From: Acinetobacter sp. NCu2D-2
GTDB lineage: Bacteria; Pseudomonadota; Gammaproteobacteria; Pseudomonadales; Moraxellaceae
Assembly (NCBI RefSeq): GCF_001647675.1
Contig: NZ_CP015594.1
Coordinates: forward strand, 868,001-932,000
DNA: 64,000 bases
Reading direction: 5' to 3'
The position numbers were made by a program, and so were the translations under genes. Below, one piece after another: positions 1 to 52,285 of this stretch. Positions within the stretch are counted from its first letter, which is position 1. The number at the start of each line of letters is the position of its first letter. The notes beneath the pieces were generated by a model. It saw only the letters and a list, made by a program, of their open reading frames with translations. It was not told the origin of the DNA and did no database searches.

Positions 1-457
1 TCAAATTAGAAATTAAAACACCAGCGGCAAAAATTAAGGTCCATAACCAGATTGAGGTCTGTGGAAACCATTCTTGCATCAAAATAGCGGCGGCAGTGAA
101 TTCAGTACCGAGGGTCGCTGACCAGCCCAGCCAGTACATCCATGACACCATATAGCCTGTACCTGGGCCAATGTAATTCGTTGCAAACGCACCAAATGAG
201 CCAGAAACAGGTAAATGGACAGCAAGTTCACCTAAGCAGAGCATCACCATATAGGCAATCAAACCACCAATAATATAGGCAAGGACAGCACCTAATGGGC
301 CAGCTTGTGAAATTACTTCACCTGAACCCATAAATAGACCTGTACCGATTGCACCACCGAGGGACAACATCACCAAATGGCGTGTCGTCATTGCGCGTTT
401 AAGCGTAAGAGCTTGTCCTTCTCCAGACGACTGGGAAGGAGATGAGGGAGAATGCAT
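1..457 (-). CDS. Amino-acid permease, N-terminal part (runs off left edge)
   Basis: Reading the minus strand from an ATG at 457 gives about 152 residues, open to the window edge. A short Ser-rich cytoplasmic tail is followed by KRAMTTRHLVMLSLGGAIG and GTGLFMGSGEVI, the signature of TM1 in the APC superfamily (AAT family), then GELAVHLPVSGSFGAFA and further membrane segments. The stretch WLGWSATLGTEFTAAAILMQ resembles the S-methylmethionine permease MmuP as I remember it, but LysP/GabP-type substrates cannot be excluded. It should be an inner-membrane proton/amino-acid symporter. The C-terminal two thirds are outside the window, so integrity is unknown. Confidence 0.88.
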   Translation of the reverse strand, partial: MHSPSSPSQSSGEGQALTLKRAMTTRHLVMLSLGGAIGTGLFMGSGEVISQAGPLGAVLAYIIGGLIAYMVMLCLGELAVHLPVSGSFGAFATNYIGPGTGYMVSWMYWLGWSATLGTEFTAAAILMQEWFPQTSIWLWTLIFAAGVLISNL

Positions 458-27780: not shown

Positions 27781-28224
27781 TTATTTTAAATCGCGTTGTA
27801 ACTGGCGAATTGTTGGAATCTCGGTATAACGCAGCACTAAATAGCCTGCAGCAATGAGCATAGCATCACGCTCAGCATCTTCTTTTTCTTTGCCAATATG
27901 ACTTGGGTCATCGAGTTCAATAATAGCAACGACATTATATTTTTGGTCTAACAAAACAAAATCAGTGACTTTGCGATTAAAACGATTACGCATCTTCATT
28001 TGGTCATGCGTGATTAAAGCGCTAAAAGCCACTTGAGCCAACACATAATGATGGGGGAAGGCTTCATTTAATCTTTTAAATAAGCGGCTCTCAAAATTAG
28101 TAATCACTGGCTTTGGATAAAAATTTTCTTTGCGATTAAAAAGATTGGGAAATAAAAGACAAATTAAAGCAAAGCTGGCAAAGCAACCGATAACGAAAAA
28201 GATGATTTGACTTAAATGTGGCAC
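27781..28224 (-). CDS. DUF2726 membrane-anchored protein
   Basis: 147 residues: one N-terminal membrane helix (IIFFVIGCFASFALICLLF) and a cytoplasmic DUF2726 domain (about 35-147). VAFSALITHDQMKMRNRFNRKVTDFVL, then VVAIIELDDPSH and DAMLIAAGYLVLRY, resemble the nuclease-like fold with a D...ExxD core seen in this family. Whether it cleaves DNA is unknown. It stands just before the tRNA-Asn array. Confidence 0.85.
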   Translation of the reverse strand: MPHLSQIIFFVIGCFASFALICLLFPNLFNRKENFYPKPVITNFESRLFKRLNEAFPHHYVLAQVAFSALITHDQMKMRNRFNRKVTDFVLLDQKYNVVAIIELDDPSHIGKEKEDAERDAMLIAAGYLVLRYTEIPTIRQLQRDLK

Positions 28225-28253
28225 AGGAGAACTTTATTAAAAAGTATAAAAAG

Positions 28254-28284
28254 AAAAAGCCCACTGCATAATGAGTGGGCTTTT
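28254..28284 (-). terminator. Terminator of tRNA-Asn pair A
   Basis: Minus-strand GCCCACT, loop, AGTGGGC followed by T residues. Confidence 0.85.
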
Positions 28285-28291
28285 AGAATCT

Positions 28292-28367
28292 TGGCTCTTC
28301 CACCTGGGCTCGAACCAGGGACCTGCGGATTAACAGTCCGTCGCTCTACCGACTGAGCTATGGAAGA
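28292..28367 (-). tRNA. tRNA-Asn(GUU), copy A1
   Basis: 76 nt with encoded CCA. Acceptor arms TCTTCCA and TGGAAGA pair. The anticodon loop contains GTT (CTGTTAA) and the T loop is TTCGAGC. Confidence 0.97.
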
Positions 28368-28368
28368 A

Positions 28369-28444
28369 TGGCTCTCCAACCTGGGCTCGAACCAGGGACC
28401 TGCGGATTAACAGTCCGTCGCTCTACCGACTGAGCTATTGGAGA
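28369..28444 (-). tRNA. tRNA-Asn(GUU), copy A2
   Basis: 76 nt, one base from its neighbour. The body is identical to A1; only the acceptor stem differs, with paired changes (TCTCCAA and TTGGAGA). Encoded CCA. Confidence 0.97.
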
Positions 28445-28455
28445 ATCTGAAAGCG

Positions 28456-28483
28456 ATTATAGAGAGATTTTGAGAGGGGTCAA
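28456..28483 (-). promoter_or_regulatory. Promoter of tRNA-Asn pair A
   Basis: On the minus strand TTGACC, 16-bp spacer, TATAAT, with the -10 ending 12 nt before the tRNA 5' end. Confidence 0.8.
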
Positions 28484-28621
28484 GGAACTTTTAAGAAAAA
28501 CAACAGAAAATGCAGTCAAGTGTTTTAAAAATAATCGAAACTCAAATATGTTCAATATCTTAGTTAGAATTTAATTTATTTCGATGAGCCTCAGATGCTC
28601 TATAAAGCTATAAACCGCCAT

Positions 28622-28655
28622 AAAAAAAGCCCACTGCATAATGAGTGGGCTTTTT
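28622..28655 (-). terminator. Terminator of tRNA-Asn pair B
   Basis: Same GCCCACT/AGTGGGC stem as copy A with longer A and T runs. Confidence 0.85.
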
Positions 28656-28662
28656 AGAATCT

Positions 28663-28738
28663 TGGCTCTTCCACCTGGGCTCGAACCAGGGACCTGCGGA
28701 TTAACAGTCCGTCGCTCTACCGACTGAGCTATGGAAGA
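28663..28738 (-). tRNA. tRNA-Asn(GUU), copy B1
   Basis: Identical to A1 (28292-28367). 76 nt with CCA. Confidence 0.97.
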
Positions 28739-28739
28739 A

Positions 28740-28815
28740 TGGCTCTCCAACCTGGGCTCGAACCAGGGACCTGCGGATTAACAGTCCGTCGCTCTACCGA
28801 CTGAGCTATTGGAGA
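28740..28815 (-). tRNA. tRNA-Asn(GUU), copy B2
   Basis: Identical to A2 (28369-28444). 76 nt with CCA. Confidence 0.97.
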
Positions 28816-28826
28816 ATCTGATGCGC

Positions 28827-28855
28827 ATTTTAGGCAGGAAAATTCAGGTCGTCAA
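28827..28855 (-). promoter_or_regulatory. Promoter of tRNA-Asn pair B
   Basis: On the minus strand TTGACG, 17-bp spacer, TAAAAT, ending 12 nt before the tRNA. The sequence is unrelated to the promoter of pair A. Confidence 0.75.
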
Positions 28856-28932
28856 CAAAAAATAGTGCGAAATGCCTTTTTATTGTGCGATTAAGATTTA
28901 ATGGCTTAAATATTGATTCTATTGTGGTTTTA

Positions 28933-28948
28933 ATATTCAATTGAATAT
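28933..28948. promoter_or_regulatory. 16-bp perfect palindrome upstream of apeA
   Basis: ATATTCAATTGAATAT, ending 42 bp before the apeA start. A candidate operator or a promoter-overlapping site. AT-rich palindromes can occur by chance. Confidence 0.4.
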
Positions 28949-28990
28949 AGCTTTAATTGGGGATTGTGCTTTATAACATAGGTAAATCAA

Positions 28991-30370
28991 ATGCGAATCG
29001 AAAAACATTACAAAAAAACGGGATATTTTTGGTTGCCAGGAAAAGAAGATATAAAAATTCCTGGAGTCTTATCAATAATTGATGGTGGGAAAGCAGAATT
29101 AGAAATTATTGGTCATTTCAGTGGAATAGAATCATTTAACAGTCCAGATGATTTAGATCGAATTCTAGGCTTAGTAGAGGGTGATGGTTTAGTAACTCTT
29201 GATCATTGTTTTTATACTAAAAAGAATTTTACATTTGGAGGAATTTCAAAATCAATCATCTTCGTACACAAGGTGTTTAGTGGTGCTAGTTGGGACGAAG
29301 ATGAAACTATCACTTTCAATACATTTTCATTTGAAGTGGATTGCTTAGATGAATGGGTAGGAATTAGTGGTATAGCAGTCAATGGAGACGATCCAAGATT
29401 ACAAACAACTATTACATATATTCCACCTGAGAAAAAAATATTTGAATTAGCGAATGGTATGGCTCTTGAAATTGGCTTTGCATATACGCTTCCTGGGTTT
29501 CTTAATCTAAAAGAAGCAAAAGTTACTCAACGAGCTTACTTTAGGCTTGTATCTAAAGAATTACATGAGCTAAATGAATTTATTGCTATTGCTTCCCAAA
29601 TTACTAATTTTATGTGTTTTGCTATAGATGATGTTGTTTCAATAAAGAATGTCACTGCAACCTCTTACGAAATACAGCGTAAGATAGGTGAAAATGAATA
29701 TCCTGTACCTATAAAAATATATTATCAAAGCACAACATATGTTGAAAAAGTACCAAATAAAAGTCGGCACAAAATGCTCTTCACCTTTGGTACTATCGAG
29801 GATAATGCTCAACACGTATTCAATAATTGGTTAAATGCTTATGAATATTTAGCTCCAGCAATGAATTTATATTTTTCCACTAAAATGGATGCTCAAAAAT
29901 ATCTTGAAGGAAAATTTCTAGCTTTAGCACAGGGATTAGAGACCTATCATAGGCGAACTAGTAATGAAACTTTAATGGAGACAGATGCATTTACGAAATT
30001 AGTTGAAGAAATCATTAATGGGTGTCCAGAAGATAAACGTGAATGGTTGCAAGGTCGCTTAATGCATGGAAATGAACTTAATCTTGGGAAGAGATTGAAA
30101 TGTATTATGGAGCCATTCAAAGAATATTTTGGAAATAGTAGTGAAAGAAGCAAACTCTTGAGAAGTATAGTTAATACAAGAAATTATTTCACACATTATA
30201 GTGAAAATTTAGAAAGCGAAGCCGCAAATGGAGCTGATCTTTGGGAAATCTGTGAAAAAATAGAAGCTATATTTAATTTACATTTTTTAAAGGTAATTGG
30301 TTTTACTGATGAAGAAATAATGTTGGTAGTGCAAAATAGCCAGTCACTAAAAAACAGATTGAAGAGTTAA
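28991..30370 (+). CDS. apeA: ApeA-type HEPN anti-phage protein
   Basis: 459 residues. The N-terminal half (about 1-290) is a beta-rich domain of the ApeA N-terminal type (GYFWLPGKEDIKIPGVL, then DGGKAELEIIGHF). The C-terminal half is a helical HEPN domain, with FLALAQGLETYHRR near 309-322 and the RNase motif Rx4H as R397 and H402 in NTRNYFTHYSE. ApeA is a single-gene abortive-infection system in which a HEPN nuclease acts on phage infection (family knowledge). The gene is clearly more AT-rich than its neighbours and lies between the tRNA-Asn array and sodB, which suggests horizontal gain. Shine-Dalgarno AGG, 8 nt spacing. Confidence 0.82.
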   Translation: MRIEKHYKKTGYFWLPGKEDIKIPGVLSIIDGGKAELEIIGHFSGIESFNSPDDLDRILGLVEGDGLVTLDHCFYTKKNFTFGGISKSIIFVHKVFSGASWDEDETITFNTFSFEVDCLDEWVGISGIAVNGDDPRLQTTITYIPPEKKIFELANGMALEIGFAYTLPGFLNLKEAKVTQRAYFRLVSKELHELNEFIAIASQITNFMCFAIDDVVSIKNVTATSYEIQRKIGENEYPVPIKIYYQSTTYVEKVPNKSRHKMLFTFGTIEDNAQHVFNNWLNAYEYLAPAMNLYFSTKMDAQKYLEGKFLALAQGLETYHRRTSNETLMETDAFTKLVEEIINGCPEDKREWLQGRLMHGNELNLGKRLKCIMEPFKEYFGNSSERSKLLRSIVNTRNYFTHYSENLESEAANGADLWEICEKIEAIFNLHFLKVIGFTDEEIMLVVQNSQSLKNRLKS

Positions 30371-30434
30371 GAGGTGATTTGATTATTAAATGTTAATGCT
30401 TCTTTTCTTATACTTAATAGTCTTAGTCCATAAT

Positions 30435-30463
30435 AAAAAACCACCCTTTTGGGTGGTTTTTTT
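30435..30463. terminator. Bidirectional terminator between apeA and sodB
   Basis: AAAAAACCACCC, loop TTTT, GGGTGGTTTTTTT, with A and T runs on both sides. Confidence 0.88.
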
Positions 30464-30480
30464 ACTATGAAAAATAAAAC

Positions 30481-31107
30481 TTATTTTTCAACACCAGCTT
30501 CTTGGCCAGCATATTTAGCATTTGCGTAATCCCAGTTTACTAGGCTTTCTAGGAAAGTAGAGATGTACTTAGGACGAGCATTACGGAAGTCGATGTAGTA
30601 AGCGTGTTCCCAAACGTCGATTGTTAACACTGCAACTTTACCGTGTGCAAGTGGAGTGTCAGCGTTAGAAGTTTTAAGGATAGACAAGTTACCATTTACT
30701 TCGTCAGCAACTAACCAAGCCCAACCTGAACCGAATTGAGTTGCAGCAGCATTTGCAAATTCTTCAGCGAATTTTTCGTAAGAACCAAAAGCTTCGTCGA
30801 TTTTAGCAGCTAAAGCGCCAGTTGCTTTACCGCCACCGTTTTTAGCCATACAGTTCCAGTAGAATGTGTGGTTCCAAACTTGAGCAGCATTGTTGAATAC
30901 ACCTGCTTTAGATGCATCACCAGCAGTAGCTTTGATGATTTCTTCTAAAGTTTTACCTTCAAGGTCTGTGCCTTTGATAAGGTTGTTAAGGTTAACAACA
31001 TAAGTGTTATGGTGTTTGTCATGATGGTATTCTAAAGTTTCTTTGCTGATGTGTGGAGCAAGATCTTCGTAACCGTAAGGTAATGCTGGTAAAGTAATGG
31101 TTGTCAT
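30481..31107 (-). CDS. sodB: Superoxide dismutase (Fe)
   Basis: Dismutates superoxide to H2O2 and O2 in the cytoplasm. 208 residues. LPALPYGYEDLAPHISKETLEYHHDKHHNTYV carries the first metal His. AQVWNHTFYWNCM has the second. DVWEHAYYIDFRNARPKYI has the Asp and third His. The AATQFGSGWAWLV motif and a Gln at that site favour iron over manganese. Start 31107 has AGGA 8 nt upstream; upstream in-frame codons (to 31143) lack this. A gap of about 150 bp separates it from the Nif3 gene. Confidence 0.96.
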   Translation of the reverse strand: MTTITLPALPYGYEDLAPHISKETLEYHHDKHHNTYVVNLNNLIKGTDLEGKTLEEIIKATAGDASKAGVFNNAAQVWNHTFYWNCMAKNGGGKATGALAAKIDEAFGSYEKFAEEFANAAATQFGSGWAWLVADEVNGNLSILKTSNADTPLAHGKVAVLTIDVWEHAYYIDFRNARPKYISTFLESLVNWDYANAKYAGQEAGVEK

Positions 31108-31261
31108 GTTTTCAATTCCTTGCATTTTGCTGGGTTTTGACAATAAGTGGCTTTATTGTAATAGATTATTGGACAAAAATGCGCATTGCTTTTAAATAAC
31201 AATACAGAATAAAGCCCTAAAATATACGTATAAAGCTTACGTCAAAATCCGTCAGATGAAA

Positions 31262-32020
31262 TTAAATCGGATTGTTTAATTCGAAATAACTATACTCAAT
31301 ATTGAACTGTTCTGAAATAGCTTTTGCTAAGCGTTGTACACCATATTTTTCAGTCGCATGATGCCCACAGGCATAGTAATGCACATTCAATTCTTGTGCT
31401 TCATAGAAAGTACGTTCAGACACTTCGCCTGAAATATAGGCATCGCAGTTTTGTTCCGCTGCTTTTTTAATAAAATCTTGTGCACCACCTGTACAAAATC
31501 CGACCTTTTGAATATTTGCTTTATCGGCAGGTAAATGAATCGCATCAAAGCCTAATTTTTCCGATACGAATGCTTTAAATTGTTCAGGTGACATAGGAGA
31601 TTTTAAATAACCAATATTGCCAATTGGATGACGTTCAGTAGGATCAAGCGCTTCGATATTTTGTAGTTCGAGCAAATCGGCAATTGCAGTGTTATTACCT
31701 AATGTTGGATGACTATCTAAAGGTAAATGATAACCCGCTAATGAAATATCATTTTTAATCAGGGTTTTAATTCTTTTTCCACGCATGCCCGTAATCGGGT
31801 ATGCTTCGCCTTTCCAAAAATAGCCATGATGAACCAAGAGCAAATCTGCACCTTGTGCAATTGCAGCTTCAATTGCAGTTTGTGAAGCAGTCACGGCACA
31901 CAAAATTTTATTCACGTCTTGTTTGCCTTCAATTTGAAGACCATTCGGTGCATAGTCTTTAAATTCTGCGGACTTTAAAGTTTGGTCACACCATTGAATA
32001 ATTTTCAGCAAATCAGCCAT
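31262..32020 (-). CDS. Nif3-like dinuclear metal-centre protein (YbgI family)
   Basis: 252 residues, the length of E. coli YbgI (247), a hexameric toroid with two metals per subunit. Metal ligands are seen in LLLVHHGYFWKG, YHLPLDSHPTLGNN and the C-terminal YYACGHHATEKYGVQRL. The function is unsettled; the GTP cyclohydrolase I type 2 label in databases is by homology only. It is divergent from the DegS-like protease gene and separate from sodB. Confidence 0.93.
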   Translation of the reverse strand: MADLLKIIQWCDQTLKSAEFKDYAPNGLQIEGKQDVNKILCAVTASQTAIEAAIAQGADLLLVHHGYFWKGEAYPITGMRGKRIKTLIKNDISLAGYHLPLDSHPTLGNNTAIADLLELQNIEALDPTERHPIGNIGYLKSPMSPEQFKAFVSEKLGFDAIHLPADKANIQKVGFCTGGAQDFIKKAAEQNCDAYISGEVSERTFYEAQELNVHYYACGHHATEKYGVQRLAKAISEQFNIEYSYFELNNPI

Positions 32021-51188: not shown

Positions 51189-51560
51189 ATGGCTAGCTAT
51201 GAAACCAGTAAATTGCTTGGTCAAGTTTTATCCACTGAATGTCCATCACGTGAAATTTTGGAACATCTCACCAATAAATGGTCTGTTCTCATTTTGCGTT
51301 GTTTAAATGAAGGGGTGCATCGTTTTAGCGAGTTAAAGCAGCGCATTGAAGGAATTAGTGAAAAGATGCTAGCTCAGACTTTAAAAATACTGGAACAGGA
51401 TGGTTTTATTTTAAGAACGGTATATCCCGTTGTTCCACCAAAAGTGGAATATCAACTAACGATTACGGGTTCACAAGCAGCAGAAAAAGTGATGCAACTC
51501 ATTAATTGGATTGAACGTGGTTTACCTGAGATATTGGAAGCGAAGCCTAAGATAGAGTGA
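51189..51560 (+). CDS. HxlR-family transcriptional regulator (QorR type)
   Basis: 123 residues, a winged-helix HxlR/YtfH protein. CPSREILEHLTNKWSVLILRCL has the conserved N-terminal Cys often used in redox or quinone sensing. RFSELKQRIEGISEKMLAQTLKILEQDGFI is the DNA-reading helix and wing, and TVYPVVPPKVEYQLT is the conserved beta part. It most likely represses qorB and itself through the palindrome between them. The downstream EEP gene overlaps its stop region. Confidence 0.92.
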   Translation: MASYETSKLLGQVLSTECPSREILEHLTNKWSVLILRCLNEGVHRFSELKQRIEGISEKMLAQTLKILEQDGFILRTVYPVVPPKVEYQLTITGSQAAEKVMQLINWIERGLPEILEAKPKIE

Positions 51561-51568
51561 TTTTAGTC

Positions 51569-52285
51569 ATGATATTAAAAATTGTGACATGGAATTGTAA
51601 CGGTGCTTTTCGTAATAAATTACATTTATTAGATGAGTTTGATGCTGATATTTATGTGATTCAAGAGTGTGAAAATACAGAGATTGCAAAGAAAAAATTT
51701 GAAGCATGGATGCCAAATTATCTTTGGAAAGGAAATAATTTAAATAAAGGTTTAGCAGTATTCGCTAAATCAAATTTAAAATTAGAGTTATTGAATTGGG
51801 AAGATCAAGGACTAGAGTTATTTTTGGCTGTCAATGTCAATGGCATTCAATTTATTGCAATATGGACAAAATATGCAAACTCACCGACTTTTCAATATAT
51901 AGGTCAACTTTGGAAATATTTGCAATTACATCAAGACAAGATTAAAGAAAAACCTAGTATTTTATGCGGTGATTGGAATAGTAATACGAAGTGGGATGTT
52001 TGGGATCGTTGGTGGAATCATTCAGATGTTGTTAATCAATTAGAAAAAATAAATATAAAAAGTATTTATCATTTGGTTAGAAATGAAGATCAGGGTAAAG
52101 AAACTCAAGCGACCTTTTATATGCATCGTAATGTATTAAAACCTTTTCATATCGATTATCTATTTTGTTCACTTGAATTAATTGATCTGAGTAAGTCAAC
52201 TTGTAACCTAATGAATAGAGATTATTGGTTAAAATATAGTGATCACATTCCTATGCAATTTAATCTTAAACTAATTAATGATTAA
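51569..52285 (+). CDS. Endonuclease/exonuclease/phosphatase (EEP) family protein
   Basis: About 238 residues. LKIVTWNCNGAFRNK (metal Asn), VIQECEN (catalytic Glu), ILCGDWNSNTKW (Asp/Asn), and the terminal YSDHIPMQF (Asp-His pair) are the full EEP active site. It is close to small EEP proteins of unknown substrate. The gene is markedly more AT-rich than its neighbours and has no Shine-Dalgarno, so it may be a recent arrival. It probably shares the HxlR transcript. A longer GTG start at 51557 overlaps the regulator's stop codon. Confidence 0.82.
   Translation: MILKIVTWNCNGAFRNKLHLLDEFDADIYVIQECENTEIAKKKFEAWMPNYLWKGNNLNKGLAVFAKSNLKLELLNWEDQGLELFLAVNVNGIQFIAIWTKYANSPTFQYIGQLWKYLQLHQDKIKEKPSILCGDWNSNTKWDVWDRWWNHSDVVNQLEKINIKSIYHLVRNEDQGKETQATFYMHRNVLKPFHIDYLFCSLELIDLSKSTCNLMNRDYWLKYSDHIPMQFNLKLIND

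Follow-up and report, generated by a model that had tools for sequence, protein, structure and literature searches.

Gene content of the apeA locus

The window, a stretch of 64,000 nucleotides from the Acinetobacter sp. NCu2D-2 genome, contains an open reading frame, apeA, situated between an array of tRNA-Asn genes and sodB (Table 1). The reading frame lies exactly where the original prediction had placed it, and its description as a lone accessory gene between a tRNA array and sodB is borne out, with the four tRNA-Asn genes on the left and a core gene on the right. The choice of start codon is supported by homologues starting with MRIE or MRVE.

Table 1. Features at the apeA locus, in window coordinates
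Feature	Position	Strand	Basis
Four tRNA-Asn(GTT) genes, two duplicated pairs	28292..28815	-	tRNA genes; identical 170-nt duplicated segment
Probable tRNA-Asn promoter, TTGACG-17-TAAAAT, at left insert edge	28827..28855	-	consensus match only
Accessory insert, 1566 bp, GC 31.7%; 49 bp in L040, the closest empty site shown	28864..30429		flank alignment
apeA, 459-aa ApeA_NTD1 + HEPN_Apea protein	28991..30370	+	open reading frame, Pfam, PADLOC, homologues
ApeA_NTD1 domain, residues 9-280; presumed sensor	29015..29830	+	Pfam; AlphaFold2 model
HEPN domain, residues 310-442, C-terminal, helical in model; presumed RNase	29918..30316	+	Pfam, model
E317-x3-R321 (ETYHR), Ex3[KR]-type motif	29939..29953	+	alignments; motif type from the available part of PMC3710099
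Rx4H motif, R397-N-Y-F-T-H402	30179..30196	+	alignments
Probable sodB terminator, AAAAACCACCC-TTTT-GGGTGGTTTTTTT, symmetrical, at right insert edge	30435..30463		read from sequence
sodB, iron/manganese superoxide dismutase, core gene	30481..31110	-	Sod_Fe_N, Sod_Fe_C; found in 175/175 genomes of the genus

The limits of the insert are taken from an alignment of the window with L040, which ends at position 28863 (96% identity) and resumes at 30430 (79%). The insert has a single-gene layout, with no second gene except an overlapping 68 aa open reading frame on the opposite strand. A promoter scan gave 13 promoter-like sites, versus 10.2 in shuffled sequences, and a terminator scan did not list the putative sodB terminator. 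Empty sites hold sequences similar to both the probable tRNA-Asn promoter and the probable terminator.

The tRNA-Asn pair together with its terminator is duplicated approximately 370 bp apart, the 170 nt segments being identical (window 28254–28821). A DUF2726 protein (27781–28224, E-value = 1.3e-15) flanks the tRNA array, and many fetched genomes have a homologue at the corresponding position. A second sodB copy, 40–43% similar, adjoins sodB in five fetched genomes (L034, L055, L079, L118 and L127).

The gene is AT-rich, as predicted. It has a GC content of 32.2% and a GC3 of 20.9% versus means of 40.1% and 31.4% for 53 non-overlapping window open reading frames of at least 100 aa, apeA counted in. 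The GC3 is the lowest among the 53 and the overall GC the second lowest. The lowest overall GC in the window (28.4%) is that of the open reading frame at 51557–52285, an Exo_endo_phos family protein (E-value = 3.5e-07) that is possibly another acquired gene.

The ApeA protein

Two Pfam domains are found in the translated sequence. PF18862 (ApeA_NTD1) matches with an E-value = 1.9e-57 and 195 bits against a cut-off of 25.5, over profile positions 2–271 of 271, and PF18739 (HEPN_Apea) with an E-value = 1.4e-37 and 130 bits against a cut-off of 24.4, over positions 1–136 of 136. Thus the ApeA-like N-terminus that had been noticed is recognized, and the proposed profile check on both the N-terminal and HEPN domains is passed by a wide margin, with PADLOC as well as with Pfam. 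The PADLOC matches are PDC-S58 (6.7e-92, residues 7–451), which is a candidate label with no tested function in the PADLOC table, and Cas13-ApeA (8.9e-72). A search of NCBIfam with the protein gave no match.

The Rx4H motif lies in the segment RSIVNTRNYFTHYSE, and the two residues originally assigned to it are correct. In an alignment of 73 rows, the window protein and 72 proteins chosen from homologue search listings, R397 is present in 73/73 and H402 in 72/73, the other row showing a gap; residue 398 is N in 66 rows and D in 7. Both R397 and H402 are invariant in alignment A1 (66/66 rows). In both alignments E317 is invariant as well, and R321 is conserved at 90% or more. The available part of PMC3710099 sets out the ApeA family, where the ApeA row reads 'Rx4-6H: yes', and also covers HEPN chemistry and the Ex3[KR] motif type in HEPN domains.

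Comparison of the window gene with the plasmid copy of genome G003, its nearest relative within the genus, gives pN = 0.165 and pS = 0.50, thus the protein is under purifying selection.

In the AlphaFold2 model of ApeA (mean pLDDT 89.5, pTM 0.88), beta strands predominate as far as about residue 245, along with a single long helix (194–212), and helices follow from residue 266 to the end. ApeA-NTD1 is described as mostly beta strands in the same excerpt of PMC3710099. By sequence, none of the solved structures matches ApeA at a meaningful level (best 0.055; a second search gave none at E ≤ 1), and Foldseek with the model returned nothing at E ≤ 0.001. The structure-comparison rows for the model cover mainly residues 4–246.

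The window protein shares with the ApeA family (PF18862 + PF18739) both domains in the same order, the Rx4H motif and the single-gene arrangement, its membership being read from the amino acid sequence. By these features it is a genuine but ordinary ApeA, a further member of a known family.

Distribution of ApeA relatives

The ApeA protein is present in the window's own genome and in G003, where it is 71% identical. A search with the N-terminal domain profile recovers both of these and no other genome in the genus, and 4 of 274 sampled genomes of the class, the window's own included. Presence in all strains with a GC content like that of the core genome had been named as the outcome contrary to the original prediction; what is found is a gene of low GC in 2/175 species genomes.

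A protein collection yields 831 homologues at E ≤ 1e-3 from 5666 candidates. Among the matches listed (best 120 of 831), the next-best homologue is 88% identical and is named from A. variabilis. A neighbouring esterase has its next relative in that collection at 77% identity.

Fifty-five of 72,556 annotated plasmid records match ApeA, all with less than 60% identity, and distant relatives are found on plasmids of halophilic archaea. No match is found in 50,697 annotated phage records. A single-protein search of IMG/VR gave 2 loci and an alignment search 13, the contigs of those 2 among them; the four contigs inspected (L155, L156, L158 and L159) all have phage-type genes nearby, e.g. capsid, tail, portal and integrase. 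In E. coli, 1 of 5,426 genomes carries a relative (L171, NZ_LR778147.1) with 70% DNA identity, situated between two incomplete integrase genes. Gene neighbours of the relatives differ across 13 plasmid records, chromosomes, phage contigs and the one E. coli genome. Such a patchy spread over plasmids, phage contigs and few genomes is typical of a mobile defence gene.

Two plasmid records, from Klebsiella and Listeria (L142 and L151), show a SIR2 family gene downstream of a distant ApeA relative, at distances of 588 and 1,243 bp, so that a partner is conceivable for those two. ApeA had originally been described as a single-gene abortive-infection system. The single-gene layout holds for the window, with the qualification of the SIR2 gene in 2/13 plasmid relatives, and abortive infection is presumed. 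In the Bacillus subtilis plasmid record NZ_CP064819.1 (L154), aimR/aimP follow immediately downstream of a distant ApeA relative.

The tRNA-Asn/sodB interval in the genus

One hundred stretches from the genus were compared, consisting of the plasmid contig L052 and 99 stretches around sodB that were selected from 175 genomes by sodB similarity and contig room. Both tRNA-Asn and sodB are present in 93 of the 99 and not in the other 6; the 93 form the comparison set. The distance from the last tRNA-Asn to the sodB match is 147–205 bp in 72/93, 289–606 bp in 8 and more than 700 bp in 13, the window interval (1,668 bp) being among the latter. apeA is horizontally acquired, because it is found in two of the 175 genomes, has the lowest GC3 in the window, and occupies a site that in 72/93 genomes holds only the short interval.

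The long intervals carry a variety of genes. L034 has a chromate transporter, L056 Sel1 repeats and L058 an IS3-type transposase. L091 encodes a DUF2971 protein and L036 an unclassified protein, which match PADLOC candidates weakly (PDC-S31 at 7e-06 and PDC-M53B at 0.0011, respectively). Cargo proteins of L035, L036 and L057 have no Pfam match. Five intervals (L045, L048, L108, L117 and L120) share one homologous family of unclassified proteins with 23–79% identity among them, and these may therefore be old residents rather than separate gains. Of the 12 other genomes, 8 (L034, L035, L036, L056, L057, L058, L091 and L108) supplied the 9 cargo proteins covered by the Pfam scan, and 6 of these proteins, from 5 genomes, were covered by PADLOC. 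Within the reach of these scans, a clear defence gene is found only in the window's interval among the 13 longer than 700 bp. The cargo is mixed and the interval is thus a variable slot, not a defence hotspot; a site reserved for defence genes was rejected on the same grounds. The original prediction was therefore right in expecting a variable interval, but the different defence genes that would mark a hotspot are not what the 13 long intervals contain. With the gap between tRNA-Asn and sodB as a constant location, the gain and loss of single genes can be traced from species to species.

Acinetobacter is naturally competent. Natural transformation followed by homologous recombination between the tRNA-Asn block and sodB, swapping whatever lies between, has in our estimate about an even chance of being the route by which apeA arrived. 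The window shows a replacement between conserved flanks, the insert has no integrase open reading frame and its ends have no long direct repeat, and other genomes hold different genes in the slot between similar edges. However, a donor with matching flanks was not found among the sequences compared, and recombination of this kind leaves the first entry of the gene into the slot unexplained.

dif sites and the plasmid relative

The plasmid copy of apeA in G003 is found on contig 12 of that genome (L052, apeA at 178–1557), where it stands alone between two inverted dif-like sites of 28 bp, at 67–94 (+) and 1568–1595 (−). Each of the two has 20 of 22 consensus bases; the best score in 50 shuffles of a 3.5-kb stretch was 16/22. 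apeA is the sole open reading frame between the sites in a non-overlapping set of at least 70 aa. The contig is 14.4 kb long, with a terminal overlap of 95 bp and a Rep_3 initiator, and is thus very likely a circular plasmid. It also carries further dif-like sites, addiction-module genes, a DndB-like protein and an FRG-domain protein that matches the defence candidate PDC-S15. The nearest plasmid relative has the form of a small cassette, a kind that the recombinases of Acinetobacter itself presumably mobilize.

The XerC/XerD site consensus used here agrees by eye with the sites printed in the available part of PMC12907356. A scoring matrix was trained without any site from the tRNA-Asn/sodB interval. 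Strong dif sites are present inside this interval in 3/93 genomes (L035, L036 and L057). At 16 bits there are 6 sites in 32.7 kb of intervals versus 1 in 987 kb of flanks, and at 13 bits 7 versus 4, the site added in the intervals being that of L091. A binomial figure for this contrast counts related genomes as though they were independent and is not a true probability. With 13.6 bits, the L091 site falls in the range of the best scores reached by chance in the flanks (mean 7.5, max 15.1; 58 genomes). The left site of L036 shows a five-base spacer by eye and scores only 5.9 bits, thus its module is imperfect. Around unclassified cargo, dif-like sites are seen at L035:8040–8748, L036:2380–3849 and L057:2329–3487, the latter two in stored orientation.

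The genome of the window itself contains 16 dif-like sites at up to 3 mismatches, versus 3 in a backward-read control. Fourteen dif-like sites lie within 18 kb of its 310-kb contig 2 (150290–168236, L176), and the main contig has two, of which one fits without any mismatch and may be the chromosomal dif, and the other shows three mismatches. Genes among the 14 sites are, by eye, of toxin-antitoxin-like and arsenic-type kinds.

Thus the L052 relative and the cargo of three other genomes resemble the known dif (pdif) modules of Acinetobacter in having Xer sites around one or two genes. The window's own insert differs in lacking two inverted 28-bp XerC/XerD sites: its interval holds no dif-like site above 4 bits, and the best match in window positions 28001–31500 has 14/22 consensus bases, which is the shuffle level. 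That apeA came from a plasmid as such a module, both sites being later lost or decayed, is thus possible but rather doubtful. The layout of the plasmid copy, the enrichment of dif sites in the intervals and the cluster on the host's second contig, which would give the host the means, are in its favor. Apart from the missing sites, only the coding region (77.4% identical) and not the flanks is common to the window and the plasmid copy, and the three genomes with dif sites in the interval may represent one event in related species. The layout of sites around the plasmid copy is seen directly in the sequence; the movement of the module and its link to the window copy we infer and, with no recognizable dif site in the window insert, Xer arrival of the window gene likewise stays conjectural. 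The broader proposal, also rather doubtful, would be that the dif modules of Acinetobacter carry phage-defence genes too, with the tRNA-Asn/sodB interval as a repeated landing place and the window apeA having lost its dif sites.

In the available text of PMC6449649 and PMC12907356, additional chromosomal dif sites and modules are described, the modules carrying resistance, toxin-antitoxin, metal and metabolic genes. Neither HEPN nor ApeA is mentioned in the accessible portions of PMC6449649 and PMC13141974, nor does the word 'defense' occur in that of PMC12907356. In a limited literature search, no paper combined HEPN with Acinetobacter and 'dif module', so that dif modules with a defence gene have perhaps not been reported before. 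The window protein itself adds one more ApeA to the family; of broader interest is the way in which a lone defence gene may travel in Acinetobacter, since one placed between Xer sites would share its route with resistance genes and toxin-antitoxin pairs.

A remnant of a genomic island placed by an integrase in a tRNA-Asn gene is hardly credible even though the insert adjoins tRNA genes, because the insert has neither an integrase open reading frame nor a copy of the tRNA end beyond it, lies on the promoter (5′) side of the tRNA, whereas the 3′ end of a tRNA is the usual target of integrases, and stretches of four tRNA-Asn genes are also present in 21/72 empty-site genomes. A link between ApeA and the tRNA-Asn array, e.g. 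as target insurance, was rejected on that same count.

Predicted function

apeA is predicted, with a probability of about 0.8, to be a horizontally acquired, stand-alone ApeA defence protein, a HEPN ribonuclease acting in abortive infection. The ApeA family was reportedly tested by Gao et al. in 2020. ApeA is also listed with the Gao et al. systems in the available part of PMC7699616.

A HEPN ribonuclease may also have a housekeeping or addiction role in place of phage defence, and the toxins of toxin-antitoxin pairs include several families of HEPN proteins (PMC3710099, in the part available). For apeA this is quite unlikely. No partner gene adjoins it, the neighbours being tRNAs and sodB; the distribution is patchy, with relatives on plasmids and on IMG/VR contigs; and the family as a whole is assigned to defence by PADLOC.

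In the preferred reading of ApeA as a phage-defence protein, the beta-rich N-terminal domain would sense a by-product of phage infection, possibly deoxydinucleotides, which could accumulate during the breakdown of phage or host DNA. The helical HEPN domain would act as a dimer and cleave host RNA, plausibly tRNA in view of what other HEPN RNases cut. Growth of the infected cell would then halt before phage release. The window genome contains a match (297 bits, cut-off 106) to NF003765/PRK05359, which we take to be oligoribonuclease (Orn). Orn degrades RNA and DNA dinucleotides, according to the accessible portion of PMC11706625, so it is plausible that the proposed signal is scarce at rest. 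The identity of that signal follows the title of a 2026 preprint, cited in the part of PMC13405049 at hand, which names deoxydinucleotides as the ApeA activator; the earlier remark that the trigger is poorly defined may thus be outdated. The same part of PMC13405049 states that HEPN RNases act as homodimers, and deoxydinucleotide-specific nucleases are found near defence genes, as described in the excerpt of PMC11706625.
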